A stretch of DNA of 64,000 nucleotides from Tribonema minus. Lineage: Eukaryota; Sar; Xanthophyceae; Tribonematales; Tribonemataceae. How positions within the stretch are numbered: position 1 is the stretch's first letter; the number at the start of each line of letters is the position of its first letter. Shown piece by piece: positions 6,234-63,867 of this stretch. The stretch lies in assembly GCA_017506865.1 (NCBI GenBank), contig JAFCMP010000535.1:558001-622000 (forward strand), given 5' to 3'. The position numbers were made by a program, and so were the translations under genes. The notes beneath the pieces are model-generated. The model was not told the DNA's origin. It was given only the letters and a program-made list of their open reading frames with translations, and searched no databases.

Positions 6234-9200
6234 ATGTCTGGCGAGCAAGCACCAGGTCGTATCTGGGTGAGCTTGATGATCGGCAATAGCAAGCTGCACT
6301 GGGCCGCTCACACCGCAGCTCAAAGCGATGCATGCATAGCTGAGACATGGGACAGCCCGCACCTGCACCCGTCAGAGCCAGACGAGTACGAGAGGCAACA
6401 GGGTGACGCGGGACTGCCGCTGGCATGTGTGCCGGAAGCCGCCAGGCAGCTGCTTGCAGAGGTGAGTGACGTGGAGGCATGACATCTGGTCAATGTCTGC
6501 TGGTGCCGCTGGAACCGCGGTACCTAATGGTGGTTGATCGTCTTGTCGTCCTCCTTTCTGTTCCCACCATAGCCGCTGTTGTCGAAGCTTGTGGTCCATT
6601 GCATCAACATGATGTGGGTGTTGTGCTGCAGTGTGTGTGCACACCTGCCAGTGGCCCTGAGCAAGCCATTACGTCATTCTATGAGCGCAAGCCGCAGCAG
6701 TGTCACCAATGTCCTGTTGTTGTTAACCCATCGATCAACGTCGCCAGGCAGGGGGCCACACGAAACGGCGCTTATCACCTGGCCGATCGCTGGCTGCGTA
6801 CGCTGTCATGCGTTGAAGTAATCACGACTTCAGAAGCTTGTCCCTGCAAGGCTCTCAGCTGCCACTCGGCCATCAAAATGTCAGCACCGTTACGCAGCTG
6901 TGCCGGGCGGCGGGCAGGTGTGCGCCAGTATGCAGTGCCCCCTCAGGACTGACTGCTCACTGGCTGCAGCAAGTGGCACTCATCCGAGAAGCCTCTCAAA
7001 GCGCCTCACGCCAACACCGCGCTCGCGCCCTGCCACCCCAAAAGCACTGGCTCACGCACGCCGCGCTCACTGCCGCTCACCAACTCTCCCCATCAGGGTG
7101 GCTGGCAATTAGACCCGAGCGGCGCCTCTTTCCTTGTCCCGCAAGACGGCCTCTGGATGGCATCCGTGGTGCCGCGGGAAGCGGAGCTCTGGCGGCAGCG
7201 ATGCTCAGCGATGCGCTGCATAGCGGGCGGCGAGGGCAGCGATGTCATCGCTATGGCGGGGGGTGCTAGCTATCCGACGCTGGGGGTGGACAGGGCTCTG
7301 GCGTTGCGCGGCGCGGGCAGCGCGTATGGCTTCCCGGTGCTGGTCATCGACTGCGGCAGCGCCATGACCTACAAGTGAGTAAGCGCACGCGTACTCGCTT
7401 GAACAGCAATCGCCCACGTTGAGGCCATGGCAAGCGTTCAGTGTTAGGATCAGCCCCTGGCGCTGCACGGCGCTGGCAGCACGTGCGGCTTCCCAGTGCC
7501 GGTCAGCGACAGCGGCAGCGCCATGACCTACAAGTGAGCATGCATGCTGAAACAGCAAGTACCTACTTGAGGTTGAGGCTATTGAAGATCATGGATGAGA
7601 GGTAGGATCGGTTACTGGCGCTGCGACGCGCGGGCAGCGTGTACGGCTTCCCGGTGCTGATTGTCAACTGCGGCAGTGCTATGACGTACAAGTGTCTGTG
7701 CATGCTGAACATAGCACATACCTACCTGAAGATGGCAGTATCTGGTTGAGGGGGTAGGATTGGTCCTTGGTGCTGTGTGGCGCGGCTGGCTGCTTGATGC
7801 TGGTCATTGGCTATGGCAGCGCCATGAGTCATGACCTCCTTGTGAGTAGGTTACTTTGCACAGCACATCCACGGTTACGTTACCTGCGTTGACCTCTAAA
7901 CAAGTGGCCACAATTATTGTGGACGATCATTGCTGGCAATATCACAGAGAGTGCACGCAGCGGAATGCCATTCACCTGAATCACTGTTTCAATGGGGATG
8001 TTGCGACATCTGTCATCTGCGACAAGTGTTGTGCAATGCTGCGGGCGCGCCGGTCGCTCATGTGTGCGGCCTGGGATTAACGCAAGCATTTCGCAGCCCC
8101 GTTCGTGCGGATGTGGCAGTGCTCTGCAGCGTGCACGCCAGCGCACGTGGGTGCTCTTGAAGCTGACCTTCTAGACCGGCTCGTCCGCTAGACATGCCTG
8201 GTAATGCCTGCATTGACACTGATGGTAAGAGGGGCAGCTGCCGCACATGCGCATGTGCAGATCGGCTGGGTTCATTCAATTCTAAAGCACTTGCAATGTG
8301 TGTGCTAAGTCGGTCAATGACAGCACCACGAGCCAGCTCCCGCCGTCTGCTCAAACACTACCGAGAGTGAATGCGAGCCACAAGCTCTGCCATCAGGCCA
8401 CAAACCGTCTCTCATCAGAGTGAGATTGGGGCCTTGGCAGCACTGACAGTTAGAAGTTGCTGAGCGCTGATGTGACACCATCAATAATAAGCCCAAACTT
8501 GAAGCCAACGTCGCCAGCTTCTCAACAAAAGGGTTTGAAAGACCTTCAGCTTACAGTCTTACACGTTCACTTGAGGGATGCTGCTCTAACTGCAACCCGC
8601 GTGACGGCAGTGCTGTACAGGTCAGGTGCCAGTGCTCAGTCAGGGATACGTGATAGGTAGGTTTCTGGCACTGCAGCGTGTTGTGACAGTTTTATGTACC
8701 AACCCACAACTGGCACTTCTGCTTTACGCTGCCTGAGTATGAGATACTTTCTGCTTCACGCTGCCTGAGTATGAGATGCTTGTGCATCCACAGTGATCAC
8801 ATTTATGTTTTCGCTGTGTTAGTGAGTGATCAGTCTGCTGATGCTCAACCTACACATCTGCTCTTGCAGCGGCGCAAACGCTGCTGGAGAGATGGAGGGA
8901 GGGGCCATCGTGCCTGGTCTCAGGCTGCAGCTCCAGGCGCTGGGAGCAGGCACAGCACAAGTCAATGAGGTGCACCACTTCTGACAATGTTGACCACTCC
9001 AGAGTATGTCCTACGTTGTCGTTGTGCAATCTGCATTCTGCAAAGTGGTTCCAATGCAGTATTCACATACTTCGACGTGCCTCTTTGTAGAGTGGTCATA
9101 CTGCAGGTACCACGTGTGCAGTACACATGTCAACGCTTGGAGGAGCTTGCAGCACATCTAGCTCGAATCATCATAAGCAGTGAAGTAGCGCACAAACAGG

Positions 9201-11876
9201 GGCTTTAGGGCCTGGCCTCAGGCAGCTGTGGCAGCCCCTGAGCGAGCACAGAGCTAATCACCGAGGCGCACACCTCCTGCATTGCGCATGCAAAGTTTCT
9301 CTTATAGGCATGTGGCGCGCGGTATTCGAGCCATGGTGCTCAAAGCTGAGCATGTCCGCTTACCCACTGCTGCTAGTATGAAGGTATGCTGAGCTGCGGC
9401 AGACCGTTGGCAGTTGCCTCTATCTGACTGTTGCGCACTTGAAATGGTACAGGCGGAGAGCTCATGCATGAATCAGCCAACACTGAGGGGAAAACCATAC
9501 GTCAGCAACTATTTTTTAATAGTTCAACATTGATTGTCATGCGCATGCTGGGGCTTTTTTGCGCTTTATGAAGAACTGATAGAGAGGAAGGACACTGTCT
9601 GTCTGTGTGATGCTGCTGTAGAGTTCGGATTGAAGTTAGTGCAACACATCAAGGCTGGTGCTCAACTGCAGTACATACATACCAGATATACTTCTGTTGC
9701 AGCATATTGGCCGTTGCCGTTTGCATCCTTGATGGTCACGGCAGTCACACTCGCCGGTGGAGACTACAAATACATATTCGTGCAGCGCACGACTGGCGTT
9801 GGCCTCCTGTTGCGTTGGGCACCTTGGCATCCACCTCTGGCCGTGTGGAACAGCAGGCTCAGCGAGCGACGGCGCTCGACGTTGCACCAATTCTGCAGTA
9901 CCTCTGACCCTGATGCTGTCGCCATCGTTTTACATTGGTCCCGTGCGCAGGTGGACCAGCCCACCTGTGACGACAGCTCTCGTGGTTGCGTCAACTTTTA
10001 AACAGTATATCCGCCTCTGTGCTTCCGCCACCGATTTTTTAATCAACGTACTGTTTTGTTTTTATTTTTGCGTCGGCCCCATGCGCAGGTAGACCTGCCC
10101 GTCTGCGATGATAGTCATCAGCTGCCTCCGTGCTGGGCGCTCAGCACCAAGGGGGCAGTGCTCAGCGGCGTGGTGCGCACCATGCTGGCGGGCGCGCGCG
10201 AGTTTGTGCGCGACTGGTGGAGCCGCCACGCCGACAGGTGCGCTGTGTGTACCACGTGTGTACTCTGTGTGTACTTCGTGTGTACACTCACCCTTGAGCG
10301 CGTGTCATAGCCACTGCCCGTGCCGACACGTGCGCTGTGTGTACTCTGCGTGTACTACGTGTGTACACTCGCCCTTGAGAGCGTGTCATATCCACTGTCC
10401 GCTCTGATAAATGCACATGGAATGCTGGCTGTTAGAAGCACCTTGCCGAAGCATGTCGGTTGCGTCCGCATGCCGGCGGGCTCGCGCGAATTCGTGCGCG
10501 ACTGGTGGGCCCGGCACGCCGACAGGTGGAGTACGTGCTCTCGCTCCAGGCGCGTGCTGTTTTCAGTGTTCCATTTGGGGGGGGCGGTTTGCACAGAGCC
10601 TCTTAGGTACGAGACCATTGAAGTTGGGTACACAAAGTGAAGTTGCGTATCATCGACACATATGCTGGCGGGCGCGCGAGAGTTTGTGCGCGACTGGTGG
10701 AGCCGGCACGCCGACAGGTATACTGCGTGTACTACGTGTGTACTCTTGCGCTTGAGCGCGTGTCATAGCCACTGTCCGTGCCGACAGGTGTGCTGCGTGT
10801 GCTCTGCGTGTACTGCGCGCGTACACTCACCCGTGAGCGCGTGTCTTAGCCACTGTCTGTGCCGACAGGTGTGCTGCATGTACTCTGCGTGTACTACGTG
10901 TGTACACTCGCCCTTGCGTGCGTGTCATACTCACTGATTCTCTGGAGGACACAGTTGGTAGTTCGCTGTTAGCATTATAGTGTTCCGCAGCACATCAGGT
11001 GCATACGAGTACTGCTACACTCTGCGACAGTTTCGCATCTGTCACAGCAGGTGAGCAATGTACTCCTTACTTACTTGCCGGCAGTGTCCGCCCTCAACAC
11101 TGACGTTGAAGTTGTTTGGGGGTCGCAGTGAGCACCGCCAATGCTCCCACGGCATAGCAGCCAACTCACTTAGGGTTAGGGTTAGGGTCAGGGTTAGGCT
11201 TGTTCTGAGACACCAACTTCTGGGCGCTGCACATGTTCAGTCAGAATGCTTCCGATGCGGTGCGCTGCCATGCTCTCTTGCCATACTTCAAGTATGTGTA
11301 TCACATGTCCATATCATTGTGCACTCTGTTGCGGCCGCGGCAGCCATGTTGTCATCACGGGGGGATGCTGCACCTTATACCTTATGACAATGTGTATCGA
11401 TGCGCACTGAGGATCACATCTGAATGACAGCAGGTTGTATATTAATGCCCACAGTGCTTTGAAGAATGCTGTCTAAGACCGTGTTTTCGTGTGCTGTGTT
11501 TGCGCTCTGGCAGCCACGTCGTCATCACGGGGGGAGGGGGAGCGCTGCTGCACTGCCTGCTCGCGCAGTCGTGGAGGGACAGGGAGCCGGCAGAGGCAGA
11601 GGTAAGCACACTGTTGGAGCAGATGGCAGTTATATGCTCATTACCGTACTAGGGTCAGGGTCAGCGCTAAGTGCGTCACTAGACAGACTACAATACATTC
11701 ACTTCTACTGTAGCAGCCCACGACTGGCGTCGGTCTTCTGTTGCATTGGTCACCTTGAAGTCTGCCCCTGCCGGTGTGGCGCAACAGGGTACATAGTGAG
11801 CAACAGCTCTCTACATTGCCTCACACAACATTGCGGTCTCGTTGTCCGCGTTGCAGTAGCATCACAATGGGATGGG

Positions 11877-11908
<32 letters not shown>

Positions 11909-13930: not shown

Positions 13931-13939
13931 AGCCTAGTC

Positions 13940-19300: not shown

Positions 19301-22300
19301 GCTGGTAATGGCTGATGGCCAAGGCACATTGCGCATAACAGTCGAGAAAGCGGTCTACTGGTACCGCTGTACACAAAGTAGAATCACAATGGTTTCAAGG
19401 CTGTTACCGCTTGATCTCTGACAGAGTCTGAAACGCACACAACCAACTTCCTCTTTCCCATAAGTATGATGCCCCGATGGTGACGTCAAAGCCAGCTTTT
19501 TGCAAAATAACATGGCGCTCTACAATCCTTTGATTTTTTTCCATGGAATAATGTGCCACCTGGTGCATCTGAAAGCTGACAGTGTGACGTTTCGACCGAT
19601 ACCCTCACATGTTGACAGTTACCAGACATGTACCACACAAGAAACCGGGAAAAGCGCCAAAACCGGGTTCGGGTGTCCTCTTTTGGCGGCAAATTGGTTG
19701 AATTGCTGAAACTCAAGAGGTTGGCAAAATCAGACACACAAACACACCGGGCATGCCAGTGCTCGCCACAACACCCTAACGGCGCCCTGCCATCGTGTGG
19801 GGCAAAATTTACTGACCGTTGACCGTATTACATTATGCCACGAGTATACACTAGCGTCTGCGTGAGGCGCTAGGGCCCAGATACGCTGAGCCCACACAAT
19901 CATGAACAGGGCGCACAGAAGCTGCCAGTGGTCAGCAAGTTTCTTGGCCAGCTAGGCAGCGTGGCACCATCGACATGTCAAGAGGCAAGAGAAAGCTGCA
20001 CACCATTGCTGCATGCTGGCAGTGAGAAGATATGCACAAGTTGTTGGGAGTTTACCTGTGCGGGTGACTCCGGCTCCGACACTGCAGGTGGCACTAAGGG
20101 CAGGTGGCAGTGGTCACTGAGAGGTGATGTAGTTGTCGTGGACGTTGGTGACGTTGCCGGTGTTGAGGGCCCACCAAGCGTGCCGCTGAAAGATGGAGAA
20201 TCAAGCTGCAGCATCGCAAGCTCCCCGTCTCCCTATCCAAGAACCACAGATCAGCGAAGCGCAGGGAATCGAATGTTGGCATACTCTGAAGATGAGGCTT
20301 GTCATGCACCCTGCCAGTCCGCTTTTGTCAAGTAAACATCTGATTGAATCTAACTCCACTCAAAATCACCACTGCCTGCCACTGCATTGTCACTGCGGTT
20401 CACAGTGTGCAGCTATTGCTTTTCAACAAAAGCTGCAGGGCCACTTACAAGTGCTCTCTGAAAACAGCCCGCACAGTTCTATAGTTTTCTTTGACTTGTG
20501 CTTGACAAAATCATGTCCTGCTTCAGGCAGCACATAGCATTTGAGTAAGAAAGCAACCCCTGCATGAGATCATGTCTGCTTTACGATGCTGTGAATTGCA
20601 CATTTGCATGTTTGTTCGCGCTTACATGCCCGCACCATGGCGCACGCTCCAGATCAAATTAGCATCACTGCGCTTTTATGACTACACCATGGTGGACGCT
20701 CCAAAAAACACAATTGATCACAACCTCAAGTTTGACTTGATGTTAATATGCGTATATAATTTTGTATTTGACAAGTTCTGTTCTGGCACTTCCCAGCAGT
20801 TCCGATTGGTCTGCAACTTCCAGTGAAGTTACCACAAACACGTCTTTGCACAGCGCGTAACTGGTGCTTTGAACATATTCATAATATCTTGACAATATTT
20901 AGGTTTGTTAGCTGTAACAGTTCATTGTTGCACATCATGAGGGAGATTGCACAAATCGAAATTTGGCTTAGAACTTCAGCTAATTTAAGTTGAACGGTTC
21001 GCGTTTGTCAAACTCGCGTTAATCACTTGGCTTATTCTGGCGTTTTGAGCGATTTAACCGGAAAAACATATTTCGCTAAGGTGCATGGCACGGTTAGGCA
21101 GATGGCGCGCCATAGGCACACGTGCGGCAGCGGCGAGGGAGCAGATCACTTGAGTGATACACTTGGCTGTCCAGCGCACCCAAAGCGACTGCCCAAGGTG
21201 TTGTGTAGTGCTAGCACTTGGTTGGCAAGCGGGTTCTCGTCGAAGTCAGCAGACACGACCACACCCAAGCTTGCGCCTGGCACAGCCTAGGCACACGTGA
21301 CGCAGATGCAGACAGGCGGAACAGTTCTCATGACTGCTGGCGCCTGTGTGCACCAGGCTAGCCAGTTGCTGCTGTGCGCGTTAGGCAGCTGTGGCTGTCA
21401 AAGTGCTGCAGCAGAAGGGCGTCCGATCATTTTTGAGCTCTCGTGTGCACTGCGCGCCTGGCCTGTTGCGTAAGAACACATGGCGGAAGTGTCTCCTGCA
21501 CCTACTAGTCACGCCAGGGCTGCTAGAGCCATCTACCATGCGTGCTTCAGGCGTTTACGCTAAAATAACCCGATTTTTTTTTGCGCAGGCCGCCGCGTAA
21601 CACGCTTTTGTTTACCAGAACAGCGCAATGCCTAAGCGGAGAAGTTAATCAAGATTTGATTTGCGCAATCACTCGATTGCTGCAAAGGTCTAGAGAGATA
21701 TTGGCATAAGTTGTTGGTAGACTGAGTGTACCTGTGTGGGCAACTCCACCTCCAACACTGCAGGTGCCGCCAAGTGCAGGTGGCCATGGTCAATTGAGGA
21801 TGCAGCGCTTGCCAGACTGAGTATTGAGGGTCCGCCGAATGCGCCTCTCAAGGTTGGAGAATCTGGCTGCAGCATCGAGTGCATGTCATTCTCTAAGGAT
21901 TACAAACACGGAGTGAAGGGAAAACACAAGATTGGCATTCTGTACAAATAATGGTTGTAGTGCTGCAATAAAACAGTTGCAACTGTCAAGCTCCTCGTTT
22001 CTCTAAGGATTACAAACATGGAGTGAAGGGAAAACACAAGATTGGCATTCTGTACATATAATGGTTGTAGTGCTGCAATAAAACAGTTGCAACACATGAC
22101 ACTGGAGGACTTGATCTTCCCAATCAAAAAAGTGCTGCAGCGACAATGCATGGCTGCGCATGCATTTTCGCTTGTATGCTTCAAGAAGCTGCAGACTGAA
22201 ACACATAGTTTCGTTATGTTTCCTGCAGCATGCTAGGGACATGTTACTGCTTTGCAAACACTGCAGGCATGTGTTATAACTGTATAGATTACATAGGACG

Positions 22301-39978: not shown

Positions 39979-40010
<32 letters not shown>

Positions 40011-46000: not shown

Positions 46001-49000
46001 GTTGACGCTCGTGTCCAAAAGCGGGGGTGTTCAGCCACACAGTGTGTACACTGCATGTACACTCATTGGCGCCGCTTCTGTCAACCTGGGGTGTGTCTGG
46101 AGTGCCCAACTTCAAGGTCAACTTGAAAATAACACCAACTACACATTCAACTTGAACTGCCTGGGTCAGTGCCATAACTTCAAGTTCAACTTGAACATAC
46201 CTGAGTCAGATCCGTCCACCGCGGCTCCAGCGCCTCCCCCAACAGCCGGCTCTGCTCGCCCAGGCGCGTGGCGATGGCAGAGAACGCCGCTTCCACCTCC
46301 TGCAGGGGTACGTAGGTATGCACACATATAAGAAGCATGAATTCAGTGTATGCTCCAGATTTCATGCAGTTGAAGCAATAAAAGTGCATCGCGCGCAAGT
46401 GCATCATGATGATCGATACAGTATGACAAAATGACTTCACGGCGGAGAACGCCGCTTCCACCTCCTGCAGGGGTACGTAGGTGTGCATGCGGATAATAGT
46501 ACAAATTCAGTGATCCAGTTTCTCTGTTATTTCGAAAGACGAGGCAAATTCGATGGATGTGCATCGCGCGCATGTGCATTATCATATGCATATGACGGCG
46601 GAGAGCGCCTGCAGGTGCAGGTGCGCATGCATATATGAAATCACGGTTTCCTTCAAAGTTGAAGTAAGGGTATGAGGTGTGCATCCGTGCACATAACTGC
46701 ATCTTGATGACACATAATATATTATCCTGTCAAATAAATAAATGATACAATATCACAGATACCACTCCTGAGGTGCAGTGCAAAGGCTTGTTGCCAGACA
46801 GACCATCAAAGAAATTGGTGAGTACCGCACTCATCATCATGACCACTGTCAGATCTTGCTCTGCGCAGCGGTGTGCTGCAGCAGCACAAGCAGGCCTGGG
46901 TGGGCACGGCGCTAGGGCAAAGCCTCGTGGCGCAACTGTCAACTTCAAGTTTGAGTGCTTGAAATAGCTGAAACGAGGACTGCCGGTCCGTGAGATCGAG
47001 CACTGCTCTAACAGGCGCAATCACAGCGGCTGCAGCTTGGAGGCTGCGTGCATGAGGCTCGCCTCGACCCCACCTCTGATGATGCAACGCAAGCAGCAGC
47101 TGCAACTGAAAGCGTCCGCGAGTACGCGCTGCGAGTTTGAAACTAAATGATGACAGCGCCAGTCACCTACGAATATTTTCCCAACTTTTTGAAGAGGTAT
47201 CCTGCCTTGCCCGCAGCTTGTCCACCTGGTGCTCGAGGTGCGGGACTGCGCAGCGGGAGCCTCCATCTTCCCAGCTTTGTAAGGACTTCAATAACTAACT
47301 CAACTGTGGACTTGCCTGCTTCTGCGTCCGTTCCGCCACCTCGTTCGGACTCCAGGTGCGAGACCCCCTCCCATTAACTTCAACACCCATTCAACTTCAA
47401 TCAACACTTCAACAGCAGACTCTCCTGCTTCTGCCCACAGCTCCTCCACCTGACACTCGCGGTGCACCAGCAGCCCCTCCATCCAATGAAGACAACCCTA
47501 AACTGTTTTTAAGTTTTAGAAAAACTTCAAAAGGAGACTTGCCTGCTTCTGCGCCCGCAGCTGGCACTCCAGGTGCGCGAGCCGCTCCGTCCAGCTACAA
47601 CACCAGACAGACTTCAACAAACACTTCAACAGCAGACTCGCGGTATGGCTTGCGAGGTGTCCGTCCAGTCAAGACAACCCTAAACTTCAAAAAGAGCTTC
47701 TGCAGGCGACTCGCCTGCTTCTGCGCCCGCAGCTTCTCCACCTGGCACTCCAGGCGCATGAGCCTCTCCATCAAGTTTAGGCGCCACAAAACTCTAACAA
47801 AAACTTCAACAAGGCTTCAACGCGCGACTCACCTGCTTCTGCGCCCGCAGCTCCTCCACCTGACACTCCAGGTGCGCGAGCCGCTCCGTCAGGTTCGGCG
47901 CCGCCGCCACCGTCGCCTCTGCTTCCTCCTCCTCCTGCGGCGGCTCCTGTCCCAGCAAGCGCGCGAGCGCTGCCACTTCCGCGCGCGTGTGCGCCAGGCT
48001 CGCTACGAACTGGTCCCGCACGCTCTCCTCCTCCCTTATCTGCGCAGTGATGCGAGGGCGGGGCGGATGGGGTGAGCGCTTGCAGTAGGGGCAGAGCTCT
48101 TGAAATTTTCAATTTACTTAGTTGTAGTTGCGGCAAGCACCTGAAGTAGGAGGGAGGGAGGGGTACAGAGCAGGGTGTTGAAGCTGTAGTTGTGGCGGTC
48201 GGTCAGCAAGCGGATGTCGTTTCCGCTCCTTGCTGATCTGCAGCACTGCACAGATGCGCCGCTCCAACGAGGACCACTCACATACAGCAAATGCTGATAC
48301 CGGGGGGGGAGCTACCGCGAAGCGATGCACAGGGTTGACAGCACTGCCGCCTCGCACCGCGTGCGCGCCAAAAGGCGGTTGCACGCGCTGTGTCGCTACG
48401 ATCGAGTCATGAATTGGGCCAACGCAGTTATTCAATCCAAATGTGTCACCAGGGTGTACAGCACAGACTTGAACGAGGAGCACTCCAGCCTCGGACTTGG
48501 CGTCTGTGACACACAAATATGCTGAGACTGCTCGCTGCCCTGCCATTGTGACGTCTTATAGATCGCTTGGCTGCGCTGTCGTTCCCTTCGAGTGCGTCAA
48601 GAGAACATGCACGACGTGGATTTGTGTGCAAATGCAGGTTGTGGCCAGTGCTACCGTGTGTGATGTGTCCCCTTGTCTGCACGCAGCTGCTGGAACCCAA
48701 CACAACACTTGTTGTCCTCTGCAACAACAGGTGGCCAGTGCTACAATGTGTGATGTGTCACCTTGTCTGCGCACAGCCGCTGGAAGCCAACACAAAATGT
48801 GATTTCTCTATGATATTAGGTTCTGCTACCGTGTGTGATGTAACACCTTGTCTGCACACAACCGCTGAAACCCAACACAAAATGTGATATATTCTCTGTG
48901 ATTGTGCTACTGTGTGTCATATGTCACCTTGTCTGCACACAGCCGCTGGAACCCCGCCATGAGCCCCTCCAACTGCCGGTGCTTCTCGTCCGTGCTGTAT

Positions 49001-51122: not shown

Positions 51123-54100
51123 TCAGAGCGCCGCCGCGTGTATCCCCGCGTGGCACACGGCAATGTTCTGGCGCGTCAGCTCGGCGCTCATGCGCGGGTT
51201 TATGGACACCACCTGCCATTGCACATGCAGCGATTTTGCCACAGTCGGGTGCACACGGAAGGCGTCAGCAGCGGCGGCGGCGGCGCACGGTCGGCTGTGA
51301 GTGCATGGTTACTTTTGGCTACATGCTGTTACAAGTGCCGATGTTTGCAGCCGATGCAGACGGGCCTTCGCGCGCGTGCGCAGGCACAGCGGCAATGCAC
51401 GCAGCACATCCACAGGTGATCGCATGCATGACCTGAATATGCCACATTGTGCCCGATGGACCTTTATGTGCGCCCCAGGTGTTGTCGATGCAACGCATGT
51501 GCAGTCGTACAGGTACCGGATGCATTGGATCGATGACACCTGGGCGCCTATTGACCATGGGGGGGGGAGGGGGCTGTTGCAGTTGCAGCAGAATGCAGTT
51601 GCAGCAGAACCAGCTTGCCACTGACATACTTCAACCAAGAGGAGCAAAGAGGCATGAGTGATTACACATTGCCTGCATTCTGTGTCCCCAATAGGTGGTG
51701 ATGCTCACCTTTTCCAGCAGCGGCAGGGCGCCCGCGTAGTCGTGCCGCCGCATGCGCAGGATCGCCAGGCCGTTCAGCGCGCCAAAGTGCCTGCGCGCAG
51801 CGGCGATGGGCACCAGCGGCAGCGGTTAGCAGCAGCAGCAGCAGCGCGCTGCAACACCAGCAGTTGCAGCAGCAATCAGCATCAGCAGCAGCGCGCAGCA
51901 CCGGCACCAGCGCAGGGCAGCAACAGTAGCTCACATCACGGGCAGCAGCGGCCGGCGCCGGTCAAGTTGCGCATGCACGCATTTCCTCCAAATTGAAGTT
52001 CGGCAAGCTTGATGTTCTATCTGTTGCATTCAGAAGACTTCTAAATCTGCAGAGCGTCTGATGTTGAGCACAAATCAAGCATGAACATTTTAAGACTTTG
52101 GGGATTTTTGAGAGCAGTCCCTGTCGCCGCTGCCGGCGCCGTGCTCGTTGGCGCCGCGGCAAACATGCGGCTTCAGAGCGCTGCCGCAACGTATATCACT
52201 GATCACCACATGTGCATACCTAAGAGACGCGCGTGCGTAACGCCCACCTCAGCTACAGTACACACCTCGGCTCAAGCTCCAGCACCCTGGCTGCCTCCGC
52301 CTCGCTGTCGGCGAGCCGCCCCGCGAGGAACAAAGCAGTGCTCAGGCGGTTGCGGCCCTCCGCGTGCAACGGGTCCAGCGCGACGGCGCGGCGGAGCGCT
52401 GCCACCGCCGCCACGCAGTTCTGGCGCGCCATGTGGTTGGCGGCGTCCTCCAGGGCCTTGACGACCTCCTGATGGGTGGGTGGGTGGGGGGGGGGGGGGG
52501 GGGGGGGATCAGTGTACTTGCACATGCGAAAGTGAGTGTGTGTATTCGAAAGCTTTTGCCGCAACCAAGCAAATCTATGCAGTTCTGGCACGCCATGTGG
52601 TTGGTGGCGTCCTCCAGGGCCTTGACGACCTCCGGGGGGGGGGGGGGGGCGGCGAGGGGAAAGGGGGGGAACCGTTAGGGGAGGGGGACGGCGGGTCAGC
52701 GCACATGTAGTGTGTGCATTTCTGCCGAAAATAAGTGCGAGAGGAATGGGCAGCAACAGATTTGGGAATCGGTACCAACAGCATTTGGGAGTGCAATGGA
52801 AGGCCTGAGCGCTGGTGAAGCTACCATGCAGTTCCATGTAGTTCTGGCACGCCATCGGCTCACAAAGTTTCATAAATACAGAGGGAATCGAGGCCAGCAG
52901 TCACAAAATCCTCATGGCAGTTTCAGCTGGTCCATACGTACTCCTGAGCAATGCGGCGTCCCAGCGTCTGCCGCAGTGCGCACGACGTCATTCATTCAAG
53001 TCCACGCCGACAAATAACAAGACGGTTCTCTCAACCTTGTGAGTGATGGCCGGCTGACAAATCTCAACAAGTGGGAATCAATGCGATTTACCAGATGGTT
53101 GCCTCATTCTTGTAAGTGATGACCGGCTTACAAACTCGTCAAAAAGTGGGAATTCGTGGCCAGTACTCACAGGGTCCTTGTGGCAGTTCCAGCTGGTCCA
53201 GATGTACTCCTGAGCGATGGCGGCGAGCGCGGGATCCGCGGCCGTGCGCACAATGTCAAACAGGCAGTCCACCAGCACGCCGCGGCGCCCCTCGCAGAAC
53301 CAGCGCCGCATGGTGCGCATGAGCTGGCGCGTCACCTGTTGAAGACGCAAGAGCAGACGCGCAGCAGTGATTGAGAATGGGAGGGGGGTTGTTGCATCGG
53401 CACACCCAGCGAGCTTCGCACGGTGCGCATGAGCTGGCGCATCACCTGCTGAAGATGCAAGAGCAGCACGCGTGCAGCGCGTGAGCGCAAGTGCAGCGTC
53501 TGTTGAGGATGCAACAGCAGCACACGTGCAGCGCGTGAGCGCAAGTACAGCGAGTCAGACAGTGTTGCAGCGGCAGAACCAGCGCCGCATGGTGCGCATG
53601 AGCTGGCGCGTCACCTGTTGAAGAAGCACGCAGACGCGCGTGAGTGCAGGCCTCCCCAGATAAATCAGCAACTGTATCTCACACCCTTGAGAACTCGAAC
53701 ATTGCATTTGTATCTCTCATTCATTCATCATGGCCTGCCCAGTCGAATCAACAACCATATGCGATGAATCAACAACCGTATCTCAAACATCTGAATACTT
53801 TACTGCTTTTGTGCTCACCATTTCTTCGGTGCTCTGTTCCAGGTCGGCCAGGCCGGCCGGCGGAGCGCTGCCACCGATGGGGACGAGCGCTGCTGCCATC
53901 TGCCCTGCCGTCGCTGCGTCCAGCTGCGCCAGCAGACACACCATAATGTATGGAAAAGGACATGAGCCGCGTGTGCCAGTGAGTTCTCATCCGGACATGT
54001 AAGGAGAAACAAGTGAGACGCATGTGTCAGTCAGTTTCCATCCAGGTGCACCAGCAAACACGCCAACAGGTGTGTTTTGAGACGCGCATACCATTCACTA

Positions 54101-56310
54101 TTCGTGGTCAACAACGGTCATGAGAGTTGACATACGCGTGGGACGACGCGTCACGACATGGCAAGATGGCGTACGTCCGTGCATGGGTGTGGCGCGCAGT
54201 CAATGATGACGGTGTTGATGACAGTGTTGTGATGCTCTGATCAGGGATAATGGCGCCTGCTTTTGAGTGCTATGGCGCATCCCAGCAGACACGCACTACT
54301 ATAGTGCCAATGAGTGACTCGCAGTGCAACCGAGTGACTCGCAATGCAACCGAGTGACTTGCAATGCAACCAAGTGACTCGCACCTGCCGGTCCCTCAGC
54401 TCCAGCTGCTGATACAGCGCCCACAGCGCAGACAGCAGCGAGAGCGTGTGCGCTTCCTCCTCCGCCGCCGCTGCCGCCGCGGCAGCGGCGGCGCTGGCGG
54501 CAGCTGCTGCCGAGGGCCCTGCTGCCGGTGCGCCGCCGCCCTGTGATGTGCGCAATGCAGCGCATGAGCTTTACTGTATGTTGTGCAGAAGCACTGCCAG
54601 ATGATACCGGGCCAGATACTCCGCAGAGACTCGCAAACCACAGTGAATCGATGAGTCAGTATGGTGCACTGCAGTTCAGGAGTTCCTCAAGGTGCAGCTT
54701 CCTACACATGCAACAGCGCCTTTCTTAGCCAAAAAAATATCGCGCAGTACTTCGGCAGCGAGGCAGCGAACTCCAACACGAACTCCACTACGAGCTTCAA
54801 CAACGACATTAATGTTCAGTGCGATGCATCGATTGCTTGACTACTGATACTTCACGTCAGCGCATGTGGCTTGCGCAGCGAGCACTGCCTGCATCGAGCC
54901 TGATCAACCCCTGACCCTAACCCTAACCCTAACCCTAACCAAAAATCACGGCGGCGGGCGCCTACGCGTCCCCGTGCTGTGGCGTGTGTCACCATCAGCA
55001 GTGCAACTGGCTGCTGTACAGGGGGTGCCCTGCAGACATGGGAGGCGTGCGCAATTACAACAGAAGCGCCAGAATCTCCAGGTGCGTCAACGCGCGCAGC
55101 CTTGCGAACTTCAAGTGCGCTGCGCATTCGTCCACTCCAGATGAGGCACGCATTGCAGCAGCGGAAGCGGCGTTGCGGGCATGCTGCTTGAGGGGCGCTC
55201 GCCAACAAAACTGCAAGCACAACCTCAACTCTAACATACTGGTGACGCCCCCCCATGGGCCGCACGCTCACCTCCGTCGCAGCGACGGGTTGCTTGGAGC
55301 CGGTGGTCCGGCCACCTGCAGCGCATGACAGTCGGCGAGCATAGAAAAATACGCAGTGAGGTAATTGCATCATAACGCGATGCGATGGCCAAATAAATCT
55401 GCGACAGCCGCGCAGCAACAAGCTGTCATGCGGGTAGCACGGCTCAGGCAGCAGCGCTGACCGCGCTGCGTGTCCGGTGCTCTGGCCGCCCTCAGCGCAT
55501 GACGGGAGTCGCACGCACAGAGTAAAAGCGCTGAGATTGCGCAGATGGTGTACACGATGGCCAAGTAAACTATGATGGCCACTCAGCGACAGGCTGTCAG
55601 CGGGTAGCCGGGCTTTGGCAGCAGCGCTGACCGTGCTGCGTGTCTGGTGCTCTGGCCGACTGCAGCACATAACGGGAGGCGTGCGCGCAGAGAGAACTCT
55701 GCAGAAGACATTCAAGATGGCCTACTTGAAGTAAACAACGATGGCCACTCAACGCGCCAGCTAGTAGATGTAGGTAAATAGCCCCTGAGCTCCAGCGTCA
55801 AGCAACTGAGCCATACAGCCTGACGGTCTTCGCATCACTATCCTGACAGACCGAATGCAAGACGAGAGCCACTTCAGCCGGCCAGGCAGGGACAGGGGGC
55901 GCCACCTGCACGGACTGGCGCCATGGCGACCTTGACGGTGTCTGCCGGCCTGAAACGCAAACCACTAGATTGAACATAGAGGGCATGAGACCCCCAGAGC
56001 CACAGCGAATCGAGAGGAGCGGTGCCTGCAGGAGGCGGCGTCGTGGCGGCCTTGACGGCATCCACAAACAGACAAAAATTTCCATCTATGTGCATGTACA
56101 TTCCTGCACACAAGGGAGAAATGCGGAGGAGGGCATGGGACCCCACACAAACAGCGAAGTCCAAAGGGCGGTACCTGCGGGAAATGGCGTTGTGGCGGCC
56201 TTGACGGCGCCCGCGAGCAGCTCCAGCAGGCCGTTGAGGACGAGCGAGTCGGCATGCGCGGGGTGCGCCGCCAGCGCCGCCTCCACCTGGCCGTGCATGA
56301 AGGCGGCCAC
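51123..56310 (-). CDS. TPR-repeat protein (C-terminal part of a larger exon chain)
   Basis: Exons: 56310-56175, 55315-55272, 54540-54385, 53923-53819, 53335-53171, 52468-52266 and 51790-51709, with compatible phases, then a final exon ending at the TGA 51125-51123 whose acceptor I cannot place in phase. The sequence shows VAAFMHGQVEAALAAHP...LVLNGLLELLAG, an Ala-rich linker, VLVDCLFDIVRTAADPALAA, YIWTSWNCHKDPEVVKALED, then TPR motifs VAALRRAVALDPLHAEGRNR, LSTALFLAGRLADSEAEAAR and RHFGALNGLAILRMRRHDYA. The IW..W...PEV block followed by these TPRs matches a TPR family common in alphaproteobacteria and also seen in plants and algae, so the protein may be organellar in origin. The role is a protein-binding scaffold; partners are unknown. 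The upstream exons of the next feature join in phase, so this may not be a separate gene. Confidence 0.7.
52582..52862 (-). repeat. Upstream copies of the TPR exon 52468-52266 5' edge
   Basis: A near-exact copy of the exon start (VVKALEDAANHMARQN) lies at 52,582-52,633, with an adjoining G-run like that beside the real exon. A short remnant lies at 52,840-52,862. The duplicated G-runs (52,487 and 52,636) mark the same unit. Confidence 0.8.
52905..53625 (-). repeat. Copies flanking TPR-gene exon 53335-53171
   Basis: Copies of the 5' edge (VTRQLMRTMRRWF region) lie upstream at about 53,405-53,455 and 53,575-53,625. A copy of the 3' edge lies downstream at about 52,905-52,960. Intron segments 53,035-53,100 and 53,105-53,165 also repeat. 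Confidence 0.8.
54911..54941 (-). repeat. Interstitial telomere-type tract (CCCTAA)
   Basis: About five CCCTAA units lie in the intron between exons 55315-55272 and 54540-54385. Confidence 0.85.
55480..56065 (-). repeat. Exon-edge copies around exons 56310-56175 and 55315-55272
   Basis: Copies of the 3' edge of exon 56310-56175 (AVKAATTPFPAG) lie at about 56,020-56,065 and 55,900-55,945. Copies of the 5' edge of exon 55315-55272 lie upstream at about 55,480-55,505 and 55,645-55,680. Confidence 0.7.
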
Positions 56311-56732: not shown

Positions 56733-59700
56733 CTCCGCCACCATAACGGCGATGCTGCCCTTGATAGACTGATGCACGATCTGCACCTCCCACAGGAGGT
56801 GCAGCGCGGCGCCGGCGGTGGTGACCGCGCTCGTGCCCGCCGCCGGCGCCGCCGCTGCATTGGCGCTCGGCACCTCGCCTGCAGATGCGTCGTGGCGAAA
56901 GCAGGGGATGGATGTCAGCTGGAGGCGTGCCTTGAGGGGGGGCGCATTGCGTAGTCTGACAGCAGCGGCGGGTATACGTCACATGAACAGCCTACGCCAC
57001 CAGTTGATGCACGTTCTGGCACTGCCCACTCACTGACTCGGACTTTCACCGGCCGCGGCACCGCTGCACAATGACACGCGTCCGCGTGCCGAATGCGCGT
57101 GCAAGGCTGCGGCGCGCTGCGACAGCGCCCGCCGCTGCGCGCGCCCCCGCCAGCGTAGGGCGCATTGCACGCGCTACATTGTACTACATCATTTACATTG
57201 CATACATGGGCTCGTCACATGCCAACAGGACGCAACATGCTTCGAAGTACGCCCTATGCCACATAAACTGGTACAACTCCTTATGTAAGGTAGTGTGTAT
57301 ACCATTATTCCTGAAAGTATACGTCACACGTACAGCATACGTGACTATTTGATATACGTTCTGCCACTACCCACTCTTCGCAGTCTGGCAGCGGAGGGTG
57401 TACGTCAAATGTACAGCGTACGCCACTTGTTGATACAGGTTCTGTCACTACCGACTACCATAGCTGACAGCAGCGGTGGGGTATACGTCACATGAACAGC
57501 GCATGTCACTTGAAAACTTTGAAGTATGCATCCTGCTGTTTACACCACTCACCGTAGTCTGACAGCGGCGGCGGCAGGGCGCCGTCATCGTCCATTAGTG
57601 GGTACGCGCCCACAAAGACGGTGAGGTCGTTGCGGTCGCACGTGCTGGTCAAAGCCGTGCGCGCCCATGACGGCTTGCCCTGCGCAGCCTGGGGCGGGAT
57701 GCAGCAGGAATGGCGTAATGTCAGATGAGAGTCACGGTCATATATTGAGGTTGCATGTTGAAGAAGATGCATGATGAATTTGTGTCGTCGTGCAGCAAGA
57801 AGTGCAGCGGTCCATGCGGTTTTACAATGTCATGTTGAAGTTGTGTGTTGAAGTTGTGTGGTGGTGTGCTGGTCAGAGCGGTGCGCGCCAGAGCGGTGCG
57901 CGCGATTCACTCCAGGCCCACGCCATCACTGTGATAAAGTTGCTCTTGCACTCCAGTAGCTTAGGTATTTGCCGTGGACCTGGGTAGGTCTGATACCGCG
58001 GGTTGCAGCAGCTGAGTACATGCCGCGGTCAACTACAATACAGCTAGTTGCGACAACAGGCAATTGATGCGATCCAGGAACACGCCCGATCAACACATCG
58101 TACTCGCGCTAGTTCCGCGCATGCCGGTTACTTCCACGTGGCATGTTTCAGATGTCTGCTCTTCGCGTTGCTGCACCGTGAGTTGTTTTGTCAGCTCAAC
58201 GCAACATCCACTCAAGCCGCTGTGGTGTGAAAGTGGTAGTACACGACCTACGCTATCATTGCCGACCCGGTTTGCAGGAAACGGCAACGCACGCGGCACA
58301 AGAAATGATGTGGTTTGCCAACTATCAAGCACTCTTTGCGGGACTGCACGTAGCTAGCTGTGTGAACCAGACTCAGACTCGTACCTGCTCCAGCGCCGCC
58401 CTGAACTCCGCCGTGTCCCCCAGCTTCGCCAGCAGATCCTGCCCTGTCAGATCCTGCACCCCCAGAGCCTGTGCGAGCGCTGGCGAGGCGTGCTGAACCG
58501 TGAAGGGCGCGCGCGCCGCCGTTACCGCCCTGCACGGCTGCTGATCGCTGCTGCGCTGCATCTGGGCTATCGCCTGCAGAGATTGGGGATGACGGAGATT
58601 CGGGCGTTGAGGTTCAACTACTTCAAGCAACTGCGACACGTCACAGGTTGATTGATCGCCGCTGCGCTGCATTTCGGCCACGGCCTGCGTGGGGGAGCGG
58701 GAAGACGAGCATTGAAGTTAAAGTTCGACTGCGGCATGTCGGAGGCCGACCTCCCAAGCCAGCACATAGGGGGTGTGTGATTGCAGCCTGCGGGCAGCCC
58801 TGTGTGGGTGCACTGGTGTTTGATGCATGCAGCGAGTCGCCACCGATCCACGCGATGAAATGCACACTGCCAGTCGCCTTTCGTGATGAAGGGGCAATCA
58901 ACGCTGCTGTCGACTTCAACGCTCATCTACAACTGCGGCCGCCGGCTCACTGTTGCACTTGATGTGTGTCCAGCCCACCTCCCCCCCCCCCCCCCCCCCA
59001 CACACACACAAACACACACAGAGCCTCGTCCTCAAGCCCAACTCTAAGTCCAACTTCCATCACCACCTCTGTCCGCCACAGCAGGCAAGCCACGCCGCCC
59101 ATGACATCTGCCAAGTTCCGCATCAGCGCGTGACATCAATTCAACTCCACCTTCAACTTCAAGGCCCAATGTTAACCCTCACCTCCGACACCGTGCGTGG
59201 CAGCGGGCGCAGCGCGGCGCGCATGGCGTCCGCCAACGCTGCATCAGCGAGCGTGTAAGTCAATTCAACTTTAGCTTCAACTTCAAGACCCAGTTTCAAT
59301 CCTCACCTCCGACACCGTGCGTGGCAGTGGGCGCAGCGCGGCGCCCATGGCATCTGCCAACGCCGCCCTGAGCGCGTGCGAGTCAAAGACGAGGTGCGCC
59401 TCCGCAATTGCGACCGCTAGCGCGCTGGACGCCTGTCGAGCGCTGCTGCTGTTGGCAGCAGCGCTCTGCGGGGGGGGGCAACACGCAAGTGAGCACAGCG
59501 TCAGAGGTGCCAATGGGCGTTACTGATGTGCAAATGCGAAATTTGATGATGTTTGTTGTCATTGGTTTGCTGATTGTCTGCTGATTGGACGCCTGCCGGG
59601 CGCTGCTGCTGTCGGCAGCAGCGCTCTGGGGGGGGGTGGGGGGGATGCGAGCGAGTACCGTGTCAGAGGTGCAGATGTGCGATTGTATTAACATTTGATA

Positions 59701-62700
59701 TCATGGGTTTGCTGATGTTTGTGTTTTTACTTAGCGCTGCCGCTGTCGGCAGCAGCGCTCTGCGGGGGGCAGCACGCGAGCAAGCACAGGTCAGAGCGCA
59801 GGTCAGAGGTGCAAATGTGTATTTGTGACTATGTTTGTTGTCGGTGGTTTGTGATTGTTTCTGCTGGTTGCTTGAGTACAGAATGCTGCCGCTGTCGACA
59901 GCAGCGCTCTGCGGAGGGGCAGCACGCGAGAGAGCACAAGTCAAAGGCCTGCAAATGCGTGTTTTCACAACAGATTTTCTCGGTGGTTTGCTGACTGTCT
60001 GCTGTTCGTTTGTTTGCCGAGCGCTGCTGCTGTCTGCAGCAGCGCTCTGCGGGGGCAGCGAGCGAGCGCGGGTCACGCACGCAAAGACGCCTTCAGGTCA
60101 GGCACGTGCTGCAGCCATAGCTGCCGATGCGGCCGCACTACGCCGAAATTGACACGTGTAAATAAAATGGAAATGCTGTGCGGACACCCCTCGCATGACG
60201 CAAACAAGCTCCAGTCAGGCGTGTGGCTGTAACGTTTTGTCACAGAACATTAATCTGCAGCTGCTGCTGTTGCGCGGAGACCGCCAATGGCACGCGCGTG
60301 CGATGACGGTTGTTACACTCCATTCCAGCTCCGCGCCGGCGCCGCCGACGCAGCGCAAAAGCGATAGCGCGTGTGCAAGACGCAGCACTGCGAGGGGCGC
60401 CAGTGCGTGCAAGCGCCTGGCAAAAGCACTCCTCGAGAAAGGACACTCACCGCCTGCCGCTGCTGCACGATCGCCGTCGCCTTCTCCAGCACGCTGCTGT
60501 CCGCATGCTGCCAGCCGGAGCGCTTTTGCGCCGCGCCGCCGCTGCCGCCGCCGCTGCCGCTGGCCGCACTCGCATCGCCCACCGCAGCTGACCGCAGCCG
60601 CTTATCCGCGCGCTCCGCGCCCGCCAGAGCGCCTGCGTGACCCGAACAGCAGCGGCATGTCAACTTCAAGTACATACTTCAAGTGTTGCCATTCAAGCGG
60701 TCGCCGCCCGCAGCGCGCGCCGCTGTTGGCAGCCTCATCAGCAATGCGCAGACATAACGGTGTTTCTTTCACTAAAATCATGTTGCCATTCAGGAAAATA
60801 TTGCAACAGCGCTCCACGCACGGGCGCGCCAGCGCACCACCATGGCACCGCCAGGCCCCTGCCATTAGGGGCCATGTTGTGTGGGTATCCACGACTGGGA
60901 GGCGCGATAGCGTGGATCCTGGCACGCTGTAAGGCGTCGTGCTATGTGCAGCAATGCGCCCATGGCGTGCAACAAGTATCACATGGGATCAGTGGCCAGG
61001 AGAATACCTAGTACAAAACGTAGGACGACAACAAAACAAATAGATGCACATCATCCGTTTTTCCAAGACTTCGGAGTATACGCGCAGTGGCCAACACATA
61101 CAGAGACACACACAGACACACGTCATATGCAGAGACACACACATGGATACAATTACATAGACAGCCAGCCATACATACCCAGCTCGCCGTCGAGCACTGC
61201 CGTGCTGGCGCCGCGCTTCGCGCCCGTCACCGCCGCCGCCGCCGCATCCAGCACCACCGTACCACCACCACCACCAGCAGCAGCAGCAGCGCTCGGCGTT
61301 GGAGGCGGGCGCGGCGACGCTGCTGCTGCTGGCGGCGCGAAGCGCAGCCTCAGCATGCCGGTCACCTCCACCTCCCTGCTGCCGCCGCAGAGGATGGCGT
61401 TCTCCGTGTATGCGCGCCACGAGCACATGAAGCTGCCGCCGCTGCTGCCGTCGCCATTGGCAGAGAGCGCGCCGTGCAGCACCTGCCGCGAGCAAGGGTA
61501 GGTAGGTAGGTACGGTCAGCATCTTGGAATAATATAGCAAGCCTCTTGCAAGAATTGGCACAGCAGCGCTCTGGCGCCCACGCTGGGGAACACTGGGGCG
61601 GGGCGCTGTCGCCGCCGGCGGAGAGCGCGCCGTGCAGCACCTGTCGCGAGCAGGGGTAGGTATACTTCACATTTTACACAGCAGCGCTCAGCGCAAACAG
61701 ACGCAGGGTCGGGGAGCAGGGTGCCTGACATCGGTTGTGGTTGCTGTAGGTGGTGGGTGCCCATGATCGGTGGTTGTGCCTGGTTGCACACAGCGAGAGG
61801 CAATACTGGCAGCTGCAGCGGCATGCGACGTGCGAGCGCTGCCGGAGCGCGCGGTCGTGCGCTTCTGCTGCGCCCGACACGACTGTCTGCGACTCTTTCC
61901 ACTTGACAGCTGACATGCGCAGCGCGAGCAAGCCCTCAACACGCCTGTTGCTAAGCACCCCTGGAAGAGCTTGGCATCGCAACATGCCAAGCTGTCCACC
62001 ACATGTGCCCCCCCTTTCCGTCCCCCCTCCTCCCCCTCCCCACGCCTACAACGCCTCCAACCACTCATGCACCCCCAACGCTCAACCCTCCGCCCGACCA
62101 CGCGACAAAACCCACCTCCGCAGACATGCGCAGCCGCAGGATGCCCTTGGCGGTCCTGTGCCCCAGCGCCTGCAGCATAGCTGTTGTACACGCCATATCC
62201 TCCACGAGCGCCGCCGCGCCGCGTGTCGCCCGCCGCTGCTCGCCGCCGCCGCCGCCGCTGCCGAGCGCCGCCTCCGCCGTGTCGGCCGCCGGCAGCGCGT
62301 TGCAGCGGTACGGCATCTGCGGCGCGGTCACCAGCACCTGCAGGCAGAGAGGGCGGTCACAATGAAGGGGGGGGGGGGGGGGTTACAGGGTGTTGCGTCA
62401 GATCACGACGACAGTCATAAAGGTGACATTCTAGGCAAAAGGGCGGGCAACGCCGCCGCTGCGTGCTGCCTCCACCAGCGCTGCTACCCATGGTGCAGTA
62501 CCTGCTTGTGGGCGGCTGACGCCAGCGCTGTGAGGTCCCCGGTCCCGCCTCTAGTGGCGCTGGCTATCGCATCAATGCGCAGATGCATGATTGAACCCAT
62601 ATGATGCCTGCGTACGCGTGTACGACGTGACGATTGACCGTGATCAACCTGCAAGAGGTCGGTCCGGCCGGCGGCGCACAGTCTCAACATGATCCTATTG

Positions 62701-63867
62701 GTGTGGTGTTTAGCCTCACGGATATTGGCGAGCCACCCCACACCTCGTCCATCTCAGTATGATCACATGATGTGCTCAATATGATGCGCTCATCATGATG
62801 TGCTCATCATGACCGTATGAGATGTGCTGAGCACTGCTTACCTGTGGCGTGATGAGCGCTGCCCACTCCTCCTTGCGCATCTCGCCGTCCCACCACAGGC
62901 TCAGCAGCTGCAGGGGGGGGGGGGGGGGGGGGGCGACAGCCGCGGCAGCAACAACAGCATTGAGCGCAGGTGCTGATCGAGCATACATACAAAAGCTGTC
63001 AACTGATTACTTGTGCGAAAGGGCTGGTCAACTTGCTCTTGTGTGGGCATTTTCATGTCAACTGCCGCCTCGCGAATATGTTTTGCGAATGTACAGCAGG
63101 CAGCCATCATAACTGGCGCCCTGCAAACGTACCGCAGGCAGCGAGGTCACGCTATCTGATAGCGTAGAAGATGAGCAGTTCGCACCCGTGGATGGTGCTG
63201 ACACAAAAGGCAGCCTAGTTTGCTCGCAGCGGCAGCGGTGCGTCGGCGGGCGTCCGTAATCATGCCACAGCGAGAGCGCACGCCGTGCGCTAATGCGTTG
63301 AAACATGCGCGGCGGCGGCAGCCCTCGGCAGGCGGCGCCACGACGCATTACGCGCAAACGACTGAGGGCGTAGGGCGGTGGGTCGCGCGTGCAGACGTGG
63401 CGAGGGATGCGTCATGCGGACGGCCTCGCACATTGCAGGCGCCGCCGTAGTCCGCCGCGCAGAGGCGGTGCTCCCGATGACCCCAAAGAATGCGCACAGG
63501 ACCAGCGGGTTGGCCAGGTCACAGGTCCAGTGCGCTGTGGCCCGCAGCGCAAGCCCAGCCCCTCGCGCTACCGCCGCCGCTGGCCTTGCATACATAGAAG
63601 TACATAATGCCACGGGCGGCCGTACCCTCGCTGCCGCGTCCGCTCCCGCTCTGCGGCTCGCTCTGCGTGCCGGAGAGCGGTTGATTTGGAGCCGGCGCGA
63701 CGGCCGCGGCGCATGTGCAAGCGCGCCGTGCACTTGCCCGTTGAGCCGCGCTGCGATTGACCGTGACTGTGGTAGCGACAGCGTGACAGTGCTCGGCAGC
63801 AGGCGGCAGCGCTCACCTTCTGCGCCACCGCGCACAGGCGCTTGGTCTTCCGCTGCCGCAGTTCCTT
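56733..63867 (-). CDS. PAS-type regulator, probable stramenopile bZIP-PAS family (5' partial)
   Basis: Exons: 63867-63817 (KELRQRKTKRLCAVAQK, basic), 62907-62842, 62337-62116, 61482-61179, 60632-60451, 59465-59307, 58573-58385, 57679-57553 and 56878-56733. From 62907 on, all phases fit (0, 0, 1, 0, 0, 0, 1, 0); the link to the basic exon is untested. SLWWDGEMRKEEWAALITPQ, TAPQMPYRC, SWRAYTENAILCGG and VEVTGMLRLRF resemble, from memory, the block between bZIP and PAS in heterokont bZIP-PAS proteins. APFTVQHASPALAQALGVQD...LTGQDLLAKLGD followed by LTVFVGAYPLMDDDG has the layout of a PAS sensor domain. The LOV cysteine motif is not seen, so light sensing is not supported. A stop at 57506, if intron 57553 is retained, would end the protein just after the PAS domain. 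Otherwise it runs in phase into the TPR exons. The start lies beyond or near the right edge. Confidence 0.5.
59182..60060 (-). repeat. Exon-edge copies around exon 59465-59307
   Basis: Four copies of the 5' edge (SAAANSSSARQ coding, plus acceptor) lie upstream at about 59,600, 59,735, 59,885 and 60,024, spaced 135-150 bases apart. One copy of the 3' edge (ALRPLPRTVSE plus donor) lies downstream at 59,182-59,262. Confidence 0.85.
61615..61960 (-). repeat. Exon-edge copies between exons 62337-62116 and 61482-61179
   Basis: A copy of the 5' edge of exon 61482-61179 (VLHGALS region) lies at about 61,615-61,665. A decayed copy of the 3' edge of exon 62337-62116 (EGLLALRMSA versus KGILRLRMSA) lies at about 61,905-61,960. 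Confidence 0.75.

Follow-up and report, generated by a model that had tools for sequence, protein, structure and literature searches.

We analysed a window of 64 kb from the genome of the alga Tribonema minus (C532:558001-622000, in an assembly of 158 Mb and 554 contigs), in which introns contain copies of the edges of neighbouring exons. We use the term echo for an intronic copy of an exon edge including the splice site. Gene models were made without RNA by a purpose-written, splice-aware ab initio gene finder that was trained on the present DNA. They included a type III pantothenate kinase (coaX; Pfam PF03309, 4.1e-21), a MAP65 gene (Pfam PF03999, 4.5e-36) and a TPR gene with weak Pfam support, one match lying just above its cut-off (27.5 vs 27 bits). 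The latter had been read as a PAS/TPR chain, but Pfam at E ≤0.001 gave TPR matches only and no PAS match. A coaX model from which an echo had not been removed gave no match in the PDB. The neighbouring 200 kb encoded an ACAD11-like acyl-CoA dehydrogenase (8e-98 to 2wbi) and a triose-phosphate-translocator-like (TPT) protein (7.4e-21; PDB match weak, 6.5e-4).

Echoes were scored by comparing 45-base exon ends with 1.5 kb on either side at a score threshold of 36, for predicted exons above a coding-score cut-off in 289 kb. The echoed exons of the three genes and their copies, in window coordinates, were as follows.

7112-7374, plus strand: coaX exon with echoed 3' edge (score 70 downstream, 19 upstream) and uncertain 5' boundary (gene finder: 6970)
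7457-7694, plus strand: two downstream echoes (3' edge and donor) of coaX exon 7112-7374, spacing about 159 bp
10089-10237, plus strand: coaX exon with echoed 3' edge (score 80 downstream, 16 upstream)
10469-10857, plus strand: echoes downstream of coaX exon 10089-10237, at +288 and +480, inside a larger repeat array
47833-48039, minus strand: MAP65 exon with about five echoes of its 3' edge (copies at 118, 299, 410, 516 and 634 bp)
47309-47785, minus strand: echo array downstream of MAP65 exon 47833-48039
46201-46299, minus strand: MAP65 exon with an upstream echo of its 5' edge at 46441-46512
44179-44464, minus strand: MAP65 exon 44179-44249 with a copy upstream of it (44335-44464), both called exons by the gene finder
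37443-37498, minus strand: 3'-edge echo belonging to MAP65 exon 37604-37689
36839-37004, minus strand: MAP65 exon with two-sided echoes (5' edge 80 upstream, 18 downstream; 3' edge 63 downstream, 20 upstream)
37040-37327, minus strand: 5'-edge echoes upstream of MAP65 exon 36839-37004
36493-36717, minus strand: 3'-edge echoes downstream of MAP65 exon 36839-37004
35756-35887, minus strand: MAP65 exon with echoed 3' edge (score 80 downstream, 19 upstream; sequence read directly)
35483-35683, minus strand: two successive echoes (3' edge and donor) of MAP65 exon 35756-35887
59307-59465, minus strand: TPR-gene exon with two-sided echoes (upstream array 59586-60066, downstream copy about 59180-59263)
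56175-56310, minus strand: TPR-gene exon with 3' edge echoed at 55979-56059
53171-53335, minus strand: TPR-gene exon with two-sided echoes (upstream 53417-53472 and 53573-53639, downstream 52856-53005)
52266-52468, minus strand: TPR-gene exon with 5' edge echoed at 52579-52670

The original prediction had placed echoes in four genes. We found them in the ab initio models of coaX, MAP65 and the TPR gene, but the fourth, a gene at 16-29 kb, had few credible exons, none of them validated. MAP65 exon 36839-37004 showed both kinds of copies, with 5'-edge copies upstream and 3'-edge copies downstream. One MAP65 intron also carried direct repeats (40565-40708/43846-43989, 99% identical, and 41532-42319/42485-43260, 89%), possibly from a mobile element or a recent duplication. 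Short telomere-like tracts of the TTAGGG/CCCTAA type were located at 11170, 38364, 44826 and 54909, some of them within introns.

Over the 289 kb, 3' edges (n=153) had a copy downstream in 42 cases and upstream in 8, and 5' edges (n=146) had a copy upstream in 25 and downstream in 7, while for exon middles (n=106) there were 4 and 3 with copies. According to our reading, 7 of the 15 wrong-side exceptions were at duplicated or echo "exons" called by the gene finder. Shuffled DNA yielded 0 of 348 edge copies, with a best score of 27. We further searched the genome with Pfam and assembled a blind set of 20 kinase exons (19 stretches, 17 contigs), which were picked by coordinates before any of their sequence was seen. 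They were partial Pfam matches likely to represent internal exons, and their edges are the ends of the Pfam match; two stretches, L031 and L032, look paralogous and may lack independence. The first nine exons were analysed before the later eleven were retrieved. Downstream copies of the 3' edge were present for 9 of the 20 exons and upstream copies of the 5' edge for 6, with no wrong-side copy in 40 tests (0/20 per edge type) and none in 40 exon-middle tests. At least one echoed edge was present in 10 of the 20 exons by the preset score and in 12 by blastn pairs. Echoes are thus real and extend beyond the window to other contigs, and the directional rule of the original prediction stood in both data sets (15 vs 0 in the blind one). 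Geometrically, this two-sided rule needs no special mechanism, because tandem duplication that leaves the exon undamaged can only place the copy in the intron, downstream when the unit crosses the donor and upstream when it crosses the acceptor. A wrong-side copy would need to skip the exon, and the side rule therefore amounts to tandem duplication plus a protein that is kept.

The local repeats were overwhelmingly direct. Self-blastn of the window gave 76 direct vs 3 inverted pairs, with 60 of the 76 direct pairs within 500 bp, and 264 kb contained 416 direct (overlapping pairs counted) vs 49 inverted local pairs; one shuffled copy gave 0 and 0. Median spacing among independent repeat pairs was 152.5 bp (n=102), the first copy lay at 97-194 bp for 40 of 57 edges, and the 12-mer lag spectrum was high at 60-175 bp and dropped near 180 bp. 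With respect to a minisatellite, for which regular arrays of similar units are expected, step size varied inside one array (e.g. 183, 120 and 254 bp), and a tandem-repeat finder picked up only part of the echoes. Local direct repeats covered 19% of introns, 15% of predicted exons and 12% of intergenic DNA; stretch L024 of another contig contained 38 direct pairs within 10 kb, and no local direct pairs were found in L022, which has few predicted introns. Among 68 arrays, 24 crossed a donor, 13 an acceptor and 4 both, and 27 were internal, with 10.1 expected per edge before visibility correction. A list of young joins comprised 11 rows: two clean joins, six rows of one 75-bp multi-copy array, two of a 60-bp pair and one incomplete pair. 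Both clean two-copy joins (at least 95% identity) showed 2 extra matching bases. The region of the gene at 16-29 kb held two tandem duplications:

26692-27117, no strand assigned: recent tandem duplication of 2 x 212 bp with identical copies and two extra matching bases at the join
21889-22093: 110-bp tandem duplication

Copies of a conserved exon can be recognised over a longer time, and a raw excess at edges therefore proves nothing. We simulated neutral duplication (60-185 bp) with substitution, indels, balancing deletions and a conserved exon. Under random placement the edge/tile ratio was 0.75-2.14 at the settings run, with 3' edges at 0.11-0.175 when intron tiles were at 0.10-0.12. Among 39 homology-backed exons, which included the first nine kinase exons, 21 had an echoed 3' edge and 13 an echoed 5' edge (wrong side 1 and 2), compared to 0.109 and 0.116 of tiles (n=1006); the tiles of the blind kinase stretches gave 0.071 (3') and 0.054 (5'; n=686). 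The observed 3'-edge/tile ratio was therefore about 5 in the homology-backed set (21/39 vs 0.109) and about 6 in the blind set (9/20 vs 0.071), and the blind 3' edges exceeded an expected 0.16 with a binomial p of 0.002. In a set of 37 exons (30 from five Pfam-backed genes and 7 from the gene-finder model of the L024 gene) the 3' edge was echoed in 20 and the adjoining intron in 9 and 7 (tiles 0.109 in the homology-backed set), while acceptors gave 10/37 with flanks at 8/37 and 8/37. One of four simulated settings, in which 3 additional events per substitution per site spanned the junction, came close to the donor values of 20/37, 9/37 and 7/37 (0.445, 0.278 and 0.215). By our arithmetic from the simulation, donor-spanning duplications occurred at about four times the random-placement rate in the samples examined. 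For acceptor-spanning duplications the homology-backed and blind sets suggest, without a fit, at least about twice the random rate, and more in the small blind set. The array count points the same way. In these samples edge copies were more common than other local duplications, with an excess beyond visibility in the homology-backed and blind sets that was clearer at donors, but for ab initio exons the donor excess was smaller and an acceptor excess absent.

The copies themselves were compared with a pair hidden Markov model (pair-HMM). The intronic halves of successive units were homologous (log-odds 589 over 27 pairs), with a substitution level of 0.20-0.25 (best 0.25, with 0.20 nearly equal for first pairs) and frequent gaps, while exon and echo differed by about 0.12 (first 40 pairs). 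By our arithmetic, the divergence of intronic halves relative to that between exon and echo is near the factor of about 1.6 predicted if the exon alone is constrained. Exon-echo mismatches at codon positions 1, 2 and 3 were 81/1151, 88/1140 and 146/1141 (0.070, 0.077 and 0.128; 3432 sites), where 4 of the 66 pairs were self-overlaps (distance 0) that add no exonic sites but raise intron identity and GT/AG counts. Equal mismatch at positions 1 and 2 and more at position 3 are expected if the copy evolves without constraint while the exon accumulates silent changes. Splice-site retention was counted on separate sets of 28 echo donors and 14 echo acceptors. GT was retained in 21/28 donors, and the bases around it scored 2.26 compared to 2.60 for real donors (p 0.27; the score omits GT and includes the 7 without it). 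AG was retained in 11/14 acceptors, which were weaker than real acceptors (p 0.04, 14 pairs). The donor site was kept no better than the remainder of the copy, and read-through to the first echo donor hit a stop in 26/28, about the chance expectation. The exonic part of an echo measured 22-108 bp for 3' edges (27 cases) and 24-95 bp for 5' edges (16 cases), and a whole exon was covered in 1 of 43 echoed edges (exons of at least 90 bp).

The copies thus drift much like neutral DNA and are debris rather than cassette exons, although their putative splice sites may act as decoys. A supply of cassette exons, as originally proposed, is not what we found, the copies being nearly all partial exons without protein-level constraint. 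Echoes as coding cassette exons were rejected on the neutral codon pattern, the partial exons and the stops on read-through. Exon duplication with mutually exclusive exons was likewise rejected, as the echoes do not combine a whole exon, both splice sites and coding constraint. Nor did the proposed decay of copies with distance hold up: the nearer copy was more similar in 24 adjacent comparisons, less similar in 15 and tied in 3, and the nearest copy was the best in 12 of 24 arrays vs 9.6 expected. A few small exons look duplicated whole; at C532:436845-437038 (L009) a 66-bp exon is repeated whole and nearly identical, and represents a candidate cassette or tandem exon.

Repeated tandem duplication across exon/intron junctions, as first suggested for the window, is supported by the spacing, the direct orientation, the locus specificity (two stretches) and the homology of both unit halves. 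Direct intronic repeats above chance, as looked for under intron lengthening by tandem duplication or staggered breaks, were present. The AGGT model of intron gain, in which an exonic unit is duplicated in tandem and a new intron lies between the copies, was rejected: the units carry intron sequence in both copies (27 intronic pairs), and the junction therefore already existed. We consider it probable that introns lengthen via frequent short tandem duplications, with a junction-spanning excess in the samples examined. Such duplications, often of 100-190 bp, would leave the exon intact when the unit lies across the 5' splice site, and would copy the exon tail and donor downstream into the intron; across the 3' splice site, the acceptor and exon head would be copied upstream into the intron. 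They might originate when staggered breaks are repaired by fill-in, a mechanism that has been put forward for young introns of Daphnia, and the spacing of about 150 bp might reflect the nucleosome repeat. Donor-spanning copies would be nearly harmless, as transcription reaches the original donor before the copy. Edge copies would also stay recognisable longer than purely intronic duplicates because the exon is conserved while the copy drifts, but this longer recognisability alone fails to account for their number. More tentatively, and with the balance of our judgement somewhat on the other side, junctions and above all 5' splice sites might be preferred for nucleosome-length tandem duplication, via transcription, splicing or exon-edge chromatin. 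Gene architecture would then steer its own mutation, and intron growth would be anchored at exons. The junction bias may be mutational or may reflect easier retention.

Several observations weigh against these interpretations. The gene models are ab initio; MAP65, coaX and the TPR gene had been named by the original prediction, ACAD11 and TPT were picked after echoes had been seen, and the kinase exons are the sole unbiased set. Even there the batches differed, with 6/9 (3') and 5/9 (5') in the first nine exons and 3/11 and 1/11 in the later eleven (11/18 vs 4/22 edges overall), and five of the later stretches contained zero or one local repeat; rates therefore vary between genes. With 0.16 expected, the blind 5'-edge excess did not reach significance (p 0.087, 20 exons). 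For ab initio exons in age-matched comparisons, the donor excess was just 2.3-fold (25/150 vs 0.073) and acceptor edges showed no excess (12/141 vs tiles at 0.080). False exons probably dilute this estimate, as LRR-like, mobile and virus-like genes abound in the stretch, but it still counts against our reading. Repair of staggered breaks rests on the two clean young joins with their 2 extra bases each. Finally, in echo-echo pairs the pair-HMM gave a substitution level of 0.16 for the exonic and 0.25 for the intronic half, with gap rates of 0.01 vs 0.035, and gaps per 100 were 2.8 in exonic halves (4.6-5.2 simulated) and 11.3 in intronic halves (7.1-9.2 simulated). The two halves thus diverge unequally, where pure neutrality predicts equal divergence. 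Ascertainment explains part of this difference; conversion, mild constraint or slippage-prone intron DNA could account for the rest.

Purely random local tandem duplication, in which edges look special since the conserved exon keeps its copy recognisable, would also produce the side rule. It is further favoured by the many intron-internal arrays (27/68), by the little gradient in intron DNA near the edges of the ab initio set and by the later kinase exons (4/22 edges echoed). We nevertheless regard it as unlikely, since random placement with visibility simulated did not exceed a ratio of 2.14 where about 5 and 6 were observed at 3' edges, and since the intron beside donors was raised as well (9/37 vs tiles at 0.109). 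Gene conversion from the exon (or cDNA), which would rewrite the exon-like half of echoes and could add to tandem duplication, draws on the gap deficit in exonic halves and on an ungapped echo-echo identity of 0.77 at -18 to -7 and 0.52 at +6 to +17 (21 pairs in register). Indels lower this ungapped profile, and with gaps modelled the difference becomes smaller (0.16 vs 0.25) and is partly ascertainment, which leaves conversion a rather poor prospect. The same profile suggested strong selection on the exon-like halves, a conclusion weakened by the pair-HMM and the simulation.

That function maintains the echoes, as decoy or backup splice sites or as regulated pseudo-exons, seems improbable to us. 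GT in 21/28 echo donors, surrounding bases not significantly weaker than in real donors and the few gaps between echoes in exonic parts would fit such a role, but codon-level constraint was not seen, stops on read-through were at about the chance level (26/28), donor sites were not preserved better than other parts of the copy, and echo acceptors were weaker (p 0.04). Introner-like mobile elements carrying splice sites would suit an algal host, and the unit length falls within the introner range (PMC9860276). Against this, the echo sequence is that of the adjacent exon, and the two echo stretches tested matched their own locus only in the 158-Mb genome, in a search that skips very common words; stretch 35480-35760 with its MAP65 echoes is an example. 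Introners were accordingly rejected for these two loci, which are locus-specific without copies in unrelated genes, and we give such elements hardly any credence as a general explanation. Frequent short tandem duplication with a junction-spanning excess remains the reading that we prefer.

Related processes are documented in several publications. New introns of Daphnia have internal direct repeats attributed to staggered double-strand breaks; they share repeats of 4-12 bp with the adjacent exon, and internal repeats occur in 61.1% of new vs 16.2% of established introns (PMC4202315). In both cases intronic direct repeats are read as footprints of intron-lengthening break repair, but the Tribonema units are often 100-190 bp long, span the splice site and occur at numerous exon edges. 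A single tandem duplication over an intron-exon boundary created a new intron in the potato RdRp gene (PMC4974935). There, as here, the duplication spans acceptor and exon head, whereas in Tribonema the duplications extend introns that were already present, at either side and across many genes. Human segmental duplications contain internal tandem repeats at exon-intron boundaries, with 27 intron modifications (PMC2812944); boundary-crossing tandem repeats alter intron structure in both, but here 10 of 20 blindly picked exons have an echoed edge. Introners, which are disproportionately frequent in aquatic lineages and linked to nucleosomes, also make intron DNA in bulk (PMC9860276), yet form dispersed families, unlike the locus-specific echoes of the two stretches tested. 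Single splice-boundary tandem duplications and break-attributed repeat-rich introns are therefore already in print (PMC4974935, PMC2812944, PMC4202315). A systematic pattern of exon-edge echoes, such as the present one with half of the sampled exons affected (10 of 20) and a quantified bias to junctions, was not described in the titles and abstract beginnings surfaced by our literature searches of open-licence PMC articles.

Intron lengthening is often told via transposons, while here many exons carry datable edge copies in the next intron, a process that would help explain how introns become long. With the conserved exon as reference, the rate, unit size and junction bias of intron growth by tandem duplication become measurable in one genome. 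The echoes also provide numerous natural experiments on spliceosomal choice among near-identical donors.

Some further features were recorded in the window and its surroundings. The genome search gave 92 matches for the chlorophyll-binding-protein family, counted per piece and with some containing stops, from which the alga is most likely photosynthetic. Window positions 1-1015 and 2865-3926 hold two copies (about 70% identical) of an LRR-like gene, and LRR-like predicted proteins recur in the upstream 200 kb, e.g. near C532:423,000 and 534,000. A mostly intron-poor cluster of predicted genes at about C532:464000-490000 (L012-L015) appeared virus-like by eye. A short contig stretch, L023 (C250), contained satellite-like repeats with 66 direct and 78 inverted pairs.

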